Assembly: GCA_002787355.1 (NCBI GenBank)
Contig: PCWN01000011.1
Location: 58,429-121,070 of the forward strand
Source of the DNA: Candidatus Magasanikbacteria bacterium CG11_big_fil_rev_8_21_14_0_20_39_34
GTDB lineage: Bacteria > Patescibacteriota > Patescibacteriia > Magasanikbacterales > UBA922
Length of the DNA stretch: 62,642 bases
Direction: 5' to 3'
Within the stretch, counting starts at the first letter, position 1. Every line of letters starts with the position of its first letter. A program made the position numbers and the translations under genes. Shown here one piece after another: positions 22,984 through 23,239 of the stretch. Below the pieces are notes generated by a model that was not told the origin of the DNA, did not search any database, and worked only from the letters and a program-made list of their open reading frames with translations.

Positions 22984-23012
22984 TTGACGAAATTTTTTAA
23001 AATTGCTATAGT
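22984..23012 (+). promoter_or_regulatory. Promoter of the tRNA-Asn unit
   Basis: TTGACG (22984-22989), 17-base spacer, TATAGT (23007-23012). The start would fall at about 23019-23022, at or just before the ATG of the leader peptide, which would make that message leaderless or nearly so. Confidence 0.82.
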
Positions 23013-23021
23013 GAAAATACT

Positions 23022-23072
23022 ATGAAAAGCAGACATGCAAACAATAATAATGGTAATAATACACTCCGGTAG
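23022..23072 (+). CDS. Asn-rich leader peptide ahead of tRNA-Asn
   Basis: A 16-codon frame, MKSRHANNNNGNNTLR, then TAG at 23070-23072. Six of the sixteen codons are Asn (AAC, AAT, AAT, AAT, then GGT, AAT, AAT at 23041-23060). The stop codon lies in the loop between two pairing segments, as in the trp leader. It sits directly after a good promoter and before a terminator and a tRNA-Asn gene. The Asn match between leader codons and the downstream tRNA is the main argument for function. No protein evidence can be had from sequence alone. Confidence 0.65.
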   Translation: MKSRHANNNNGNNTLR

Positions 23073-23125
23073 GTCGGTGTAGGTTTTCATATATAAAACA
23101 TACTCCGGCGAAAGTCGGAGTTTTT
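23061..23125 (+). promoter_or_regulatory. Attenuator with competing hairpins before tRNA-Asn
   Basis: Segment 1 ACACT..CC (23061-23067), segment 2 GTCGGTGT (23073-23080), segment 3 ACTCCGGC (23102-23109), segment 4 GTCGGAGT (23114-23121). 3:4 is an 8-bp stem with a GAAA loop followed by TTTTT, an intrinsic terminator 3 bases before the tRNA. 2:3 pairs 7 of 8 with one mismatch (one G-T), an antiterminator. 1:2 pairs by ACACT/GGTGT plus CC/GG. A ribosome held at the later Asn codons would mask segment 1 and favour 2:3; one reaching the stop would cover segment 2 and favour 3:4. Confidence 0.65.
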
Positions 23126-23128
23126 CAT

Positions 23129-23200
23129 TCCCAGATAGTTCAGTGGTAGAACGCAGCGCTGTTAACGCTGATGTCCCTGGTTCGAATCCAGGTCTGGGAG
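23129..23200 (+). tRNA. tRNA-Asn (anticodon GTT)
   Basis: Full cloverleaf of 72 bases: acceptor TCCCAGA/TCTGGGA, D-arm with AGTGGTAGA, anticodon stem CAGCG/CGCTG with loop CTGTTAA (anticodon 23161-23163), T-arm with GGTTCGAATCC, discriminator G. CCA is not encoded. It is the only tRNA I find in the window, alone in its transcription unit behind an attenuator and before a terminator. Confidence 0.97.
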
Positions 23201-23207
23201 CCCCAAC

Positions 23208-23239
23208 AAAAGACACTTCAAATAAGGAGTGTCTTTTTC
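23208..23239 (+). terminator. Terminator after tRNA-Asn
   Basis: AAAAGACACT (23208-23217) pairs with AGTGTCTTTT (23228-23237) and a T-run follows, closing the tRNA unit. Confidence 0.88.

Follow-up and report, generated by a model that had tools for sequence, protein, structure and literature searches.

The matching of tRNA supply to demand in bacteria is mostly attributed to gene dosage, to the strength of promoters and to the control of stable RNA by growth rate. The locus described here raises the question of whether the transcription of a single tRNA gene can be set by the ribosomes that read that tRNA's own codons. It lies in a stretch of 62,642 nucleotides, here called the window, from a Candidatus Magasanikbacteria genome.

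The leader, its message and its asparagine codons

A sequence-only reading of this DNA had proposed an attenuator in front of tRNA-Asn, made up of a promoter, a frame of 16 codons of which six specify Asn, a terminator (3:4) with a GAAA loop and T-run, a tRNA-Asn(GTT) gene beginning 3 bases past that T-run, and a second terminator closing the unit. All of these elements were recovered (Table 1), and the tRNA, whose 3' CCA is not encoded, was called by both ARAGORN and Rfam. The leader folds better than each of 200 dinucleotide shuffles (200/200, z=-3.87), and terminator-like stems 3' of tRNA-Asn also occur in several relatives. Directly 3' of the tRNA unit, the window encodes a small SET-domain protein (PF00856; 23278-23781).

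Table 1. Features of the leader and tRNA-Asn unit, in window coordinates
Feature	Position	Strand	Remarks
Sigma-70-type promoter, TTGACG-17 nt-TATAGT	22984..23012	+	17-nt spacing
Leader peptide frame, MKSRHANNNNGNNTLR and stop; six Asn codons in 16	23022..23072	+	start codon 9 nt past -10 box
Segment A (1), TATGAAAA, in the start-codon region, with complementarity to segment B	23021..23028	+	swap test
Segment B (2), GTCGGTGTAGGTTTTCATA	23073..23091	+	3' part pairs with A, 5' part with C
Segment C (3), AAACATACTCCGGC	23096..23109	+	common to antiterminator B:C and terminator C:D
Intrinsic terminator C:D, 8-pair stem, GAAA loop, T-run	23102..23125	+	stem-loop ACTCCGGC-GAAA-GTCGGAGT at 23102-23121; T-run extends to 23125
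tRNA-Asn(GTT), type II, TAGTTCAGTGGTAGAAC, presumed regulated gene	23129..23200	+	ARAGORN (23128-23203), Rfam (23129-23200)
Terminator-like stem AAGACACT/AGTGTCTT with T-run, closes unit	23210..23238	+	read from sequence

We searched the DNA of 39 genomes (the window's own and relatives), and pattern searches were then extended to the family, order and class. In relatives, the DNA upstream of tRNA-Asn mostly shares little sequence with the window but follows its plan: a promoter with an AUG immediately behind it, a short frame in which 3-9 codons specify Asn, a hairpin and T-run, and then tRNA-Asn. The tRNA-Asn gene follows the leader in 59 loci, plus one more that is partly masked (L390), so that the gene presumed to be regulated serves the supply or use of the amino acid that is read, as is typical of attenuators.

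The window frame reads ATG AAA AGC AGA CAT GCA AAC AAT AAT AAT GGT AAT AAT ACA CTC CGG TAG, and a count of in-frame Asn codons this high arose in only 118 of 200,000 shuffles of the frame's own bases. Across the 59 leaders the predicted peptides are all distinct (59 different ones), and Asn accounts for 360 of the 956 residues that follow the initiator. Asn is usually first encountered at codon 7.

In 45/59 leaders, a promoter with a score of 10/12 or more (best over allowed spacings) lies just 5' of the start codon. Transcription usually starts 6-7 nt past the -10 box, and in 41/59 leaders the start codon lies 8 or 9 nt past this box; the start codon was chosen partly by promoter score, which favors such distances, but most frames offer a single AUG. 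This spacing would place the leader AUG at about +1 to +3 of the transcript, and in the window at about +2 to +3, i.e., on a nearly leaderless message. As the same distance recurs in most leaders, the message is probably leaderless across the relatives as well. Escherichia coli ribosomes do bind leaderless AUGs, according to literature cited in PMC4448216.

Competing pairings and the position of the ribosome

To assess the pairings of the proposed attenuator, we compared the duplex energy of each leader's own segments with that of segments exchanged between species (swap test, 42 leaders). The segments were A (start region), B (post-stop region), C (5' arm of the terminator) and D (its 3' arm), corresponding to segments 1 to 4. 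Own pairs were far more stable than foreign pairs for B:C (-15.9 versus -9.8 kcal/mol, z=-13.9) and C:D (-15.0 versus -8.7 kcal/mol, z=-15.3), with a smaller difference for A:B (-7.8 versus -5.9 kcal/mol, z=-5.4), and none of 20,000 permutations reached the own-pair value of any of the three. The results stand when near-duplicates are removed, which leaves 35 leaders. In 17 held-out leaders, B:C (z=-7.4) and C:D (z=-8.4) were again matched by 0/20,000 permutations, and A:B gave z=-2.6 (p about 0.008). Compositional likeness within a species could slightly inflate the swap test, a concern that composition-keeping shuffles answer: their mean z was -3.7 for B:C and, more weakly, -1.6 for A:B.

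Covariation of 2:3 and 3:4 in relatives had been set beforehand as a test, and the preference for own pairs in both leader sets is the outcome. The competing 2:3 pairing that had been proposed does exist; in the window sequence alone it is mildly above chance (3.7% of shuffles are as good), and its strength comes from the relatives. The mutually exclusive antiterminator (2:3) and intrinsic terminator (3:4) that characterize an attenuator are thus present in both sets, and a terminator-like hairpin lies 3' of the stop codon in 42/42 leaders. A:B, which as the 1:2 protector pairing of an attenuator would set termination as the default, is clear in only about half of the leaders, with at least 4 expected pairs in 19/42 full transcripts.

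One element of the original proposal did not survive. Segment 1 had been placed in the codons just before the stop, where own pairing is worse than foreign (z=+3.1, 42 leaders); in the held-out 17, too, it is no better than foreign, and we rejected this placement. Segment 1 appears to be the start-codon region, with the Asn codons lying between segments 1 and 2.

We then modeled the ribosome by masking, assuming the standard footprint of -15 to +15 around the P-site. When the A site is occupied by the first Asn codon, the stalled ribosome is modeled to span 0 to +30 relative to the start codon (medians), including the whole of segment A, and the stop codon, where segment B begins, lies at +51 (median), outside this footprint. 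With the stalled ribosome, B:C is predicted in 42/42 partial transcripts ending in the terminator loop and in 39/42 full-length transcripts; a ribosome placed at the stop codon instead gives a predicted C:D in 42/42 and the loss of B:C in 39. The full RNA without a ribosome is divided in silico between A:B with C:D, and B:C. The expected exchange of B:C and C:D with ribosome position, including the change of fold upon stalling at cognate codons, is therefore found in silico.

These observations suggest the following mechanism. RNA polymerase would start at or next to the AUG, and a ribosome would initiate on the nearly leaderless message. When charged tRNA-Asn is plentiful, the ribosome would run through the Asn codons to the stop and mask segment B, so that the C:D terminator forms and transcription yields only a short RNA (about 105 nt). 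Under scarcity of charged tRNA-Asn, it would instead stall on the first Asn codons, masking segment A and leaving B free for C; B:C would block the terminator and polymerase would continue into tRNA-Asn. Without a ribosome, A:B can form and the terminator is permitted, and so the default state would be off.

We consider it very likely that the leader is a ribosome-mediated transcription attenuator that makes the supply of tRNA-Asn control itself. The case is a comparative one, built on the promoter, frame, Asn codons, B:C, C:D, the tRNA target and, more weakly, A:B; what we infer is that ribosomes initiate on a leaderless AUG and stall, and in which direction the system responds. The feedback loop first suggested for this locus is accordingly supported: the leader and its 2:3 and 3:4 pairings recur in relatives, although segment 1 had to be moved, and an increase in tRNA upon scarcity would be the expected response.

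What the leader might sense

A shortage of free asparagine would not be relieved by more tRNA, so that a useful signal has to reflect too little tRNA or too little charging of it. A related possibility is that the leader senses the quality of tRNA-Asn rather than its quantity, e.g., unmodified anticodon arms that slow the reading of AAY codons. The his and leu attenuators respond to slowed decoding in tRNA modification mutants, a design based on stalling cannot separate slow decoding from scarce tRNA, and AAT and AAC both occur in the leaders. However, a leader whose presumed target is tRNA-Asn itself accords better with control of supply, and we regard the quality hypothesis as unlikely.

It is also conceivable that the leader senses Asn charging, i.e., AsnRS activity or asparagine supply, on behalf of an asnS regulon, and that an ancestral operon of leader, tRNA-Asn and asnS was reduced to its tRNA part in most genomes. 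Two genomes, G001 (locus L272) and G002 (L278), indeed carry asnS about 105-135 nt 3' of the leader and tRNA-Asn unit on the same strand. However, in the window, as in several relatives, a terminator-like stem lies 3' of the tRNA, and in the other genomes examined asnS is not preceded by such an Asn leader. An asnS regulon is therefore quite improbable. AsnRS itself scores above the curated cut-off in 28/29 genomes, and asparagine charging is thus probably direct.

A more trivial explanation would be that the AAT/AAC run is an unstructured A+T-rich spacer and the hairpins an ordinary promoter-proximal terminator. AATAAT repeats are simple and A+T-rich, as this would require. However, AAY codons in the 59 leaders number 360 in frame 0 versus 42 and 22 in the other frames, which contradicts chance A+T repeats, and AAR codons in frame 0 number 54. 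Third bases within the Asn run, which uses both AAT and AAC, are T or C and never A or G, and the run is interrupted by whole codons. Moreover, the frame begins right after the promoter and ends right before segment B. The confinement of AAY to frame 0 and the paucity of AAR imply that the run is maintained as codons rather than as A+T-rich DNA; this excess of one amino acid's codons, a typical property of attenuators, was seen in the 59 leaders in one frame only. We consider the spacer explanation very improbable.

A T-box or another RNA that binds tRNA-Asn directly, for which target and ligand would both be tRNA-Asn, is hardly credible, given that reading frame and terminator take up most of the leader's roughly 105 nt and that the Rfam search of the window matched the tRNA family alone, with no family for the leader and neither a stem I specifier nor a T-box bulge.

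Distribution, precedents and meaning for tRNA supply

Two types of tRNA-Asn(GTT) occur in these bacteria. Type I (TAGCTCAG..GGTAGAGC) was seen without the leader, and type II (TAGTTCAG..GGTAGAAC; TAGTT..GGTAGAAC) is the only type seen with it. In a class-wide sample, 248 genomes were searched for the tRNA alone, with no leader required, and 30 of them have type II. Whether relatives would keep the frame and its Asn codons together with the tRNA was another test set beforehand: the Asn-codon leader lies 5' of 29 of the 30 type-II genes (28 found directly, plus L390), the lone exception in this sample being in G145. In the window's family, the type-II gene of G018 lacks a leader and has its promoter directly upstream. 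An intact type-I gene is accompanied by a type-II tRNA-Asn and leader that have both decayed in G044 (L200, upstream of position 1500), where the regulated tRNA-Asn is apparently being lost. Counting all hits, the leader was found in 18 families.

Type II alone occurs in the window's genome and most of its family, type I alone was seen in G003, G009 and G045, and both types are present in G006, G007, G020 and G051. This distribution suggests that an unregulated tRNA-Asn gave way to the regulated one; where a genome has both types, we infer that the regulated copy would serve as a reserve. Loci L197, L198, L201, L203, L212, L223, L224 and L226, set beside the leader loci, illustrate that the two types coexist or replace each other within this family.

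A broken second tRNA-Asn surrounds or adjoins the tRNA-Asn that follows the leader at L196, L218, L003, L221, L016, L014, L008 and L265, and recurs in several families, including at L387, L388 and L396. A 5' half is found upstream, a 3' half downstream, or both, and the break falls in the anticodon arm or D-loop. The flanks of the inner tRNA are complementary, which extends its acceptor stem by about 5-12 pairs (e.g., ATAGC/GCTAT at L196, TCTGATATAAGC/GCTTATATCAGA at L221). Short G+C-rich palindromes, e.g., TCCGCCCAAGGCGGATCCGCATTGGGCGGA, lie between terminator and tRNA at L005, L012, L014, L016 and L210; they sit in the broken tRNA halves and resemble a small dispersed repeat.

Among the tRNA genes of three genomes, the leader appears to be particular to tRNA-Asn. 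By inspection, the other 39 tRNA genes of the window's genome have no such leader, and among 83 distinct tRNA upstream regions of G032 and G214, from two other families, only those of tRNA-Asn contain a short frame in which cognate codons form a run. A loose pattern scan of genome contigs returned mostly other tRNAs, e.g., tRNA-Gly, with no Asn leader among the matches listed, and served only for background. Phylum-wide scans outside the class, covering either tRNA type, found no leader, but within the window's family this pattern recovers only about one third of the known examples, and such absence is therefore weak evidence. Carriage of the cassette by phages was also considered and rejected; 14 viral contigs matched a near-identical pattern, and the leader was in none.

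Attenuators of amino-acid operons (trp, his, phe, leu, thr and ilv in Proteobacteria) and of pheST likewise use a short frame rich in one amino acid's codons, and those of the trp/his type oppose a 2:3 antiterminator to a 3:4 terminator through stalling at cognate codons, as we propose here. The present locus differs from those systems in that its presumed target is the very tRNA by which the codons are decoded, the frame appears to be nearly leaderless, and segment 1 is at the start codon, with the Asn codons between segments 1 and 2. The His leader peptides of hisS and hisZ in bacilli (PMC2965389) also control part of the translation machinery, namely an aminoacyl-tRNA synthetase or a paralogue of one; however, their target is a protein gene rather than a tRNA gene. 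T-box riboswitches (TBDB, PMC7778990) similarly choose between terminator and antiterminator according to tRNA charging, but they bind tRNA directly and need no translation, and there is no T-box match here. In 2010, leader-peptide attenuators were known only from Proteobacteria, Actinobacteria and, newly, bacilli (PMC2965389). Within the literature that we searched, mainly open-access papers, no leader-peptide attenuator on a tRNA gene was found. Judged by that literature, codon-reading attenuation of amino-acid genes is known, and such control of a tRNA gene would be new.

We think it likely that transcription of this tRNA gene is set by the speed of ribosomes on its own codons, an autogenous control of one tRNA's abundance, and that leader and tRNA-Asn form a cassette that took the place of an unregulated tRNA-Asn across many families of a single class, perhaps spreading between them. 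Codon-reading feedback on one tRNA gene would be a direct, testable way to set the amount of a tRNA, here in bacteria with small genomes, and it raises the question of why tRNA-Asn alone carries such a leader.
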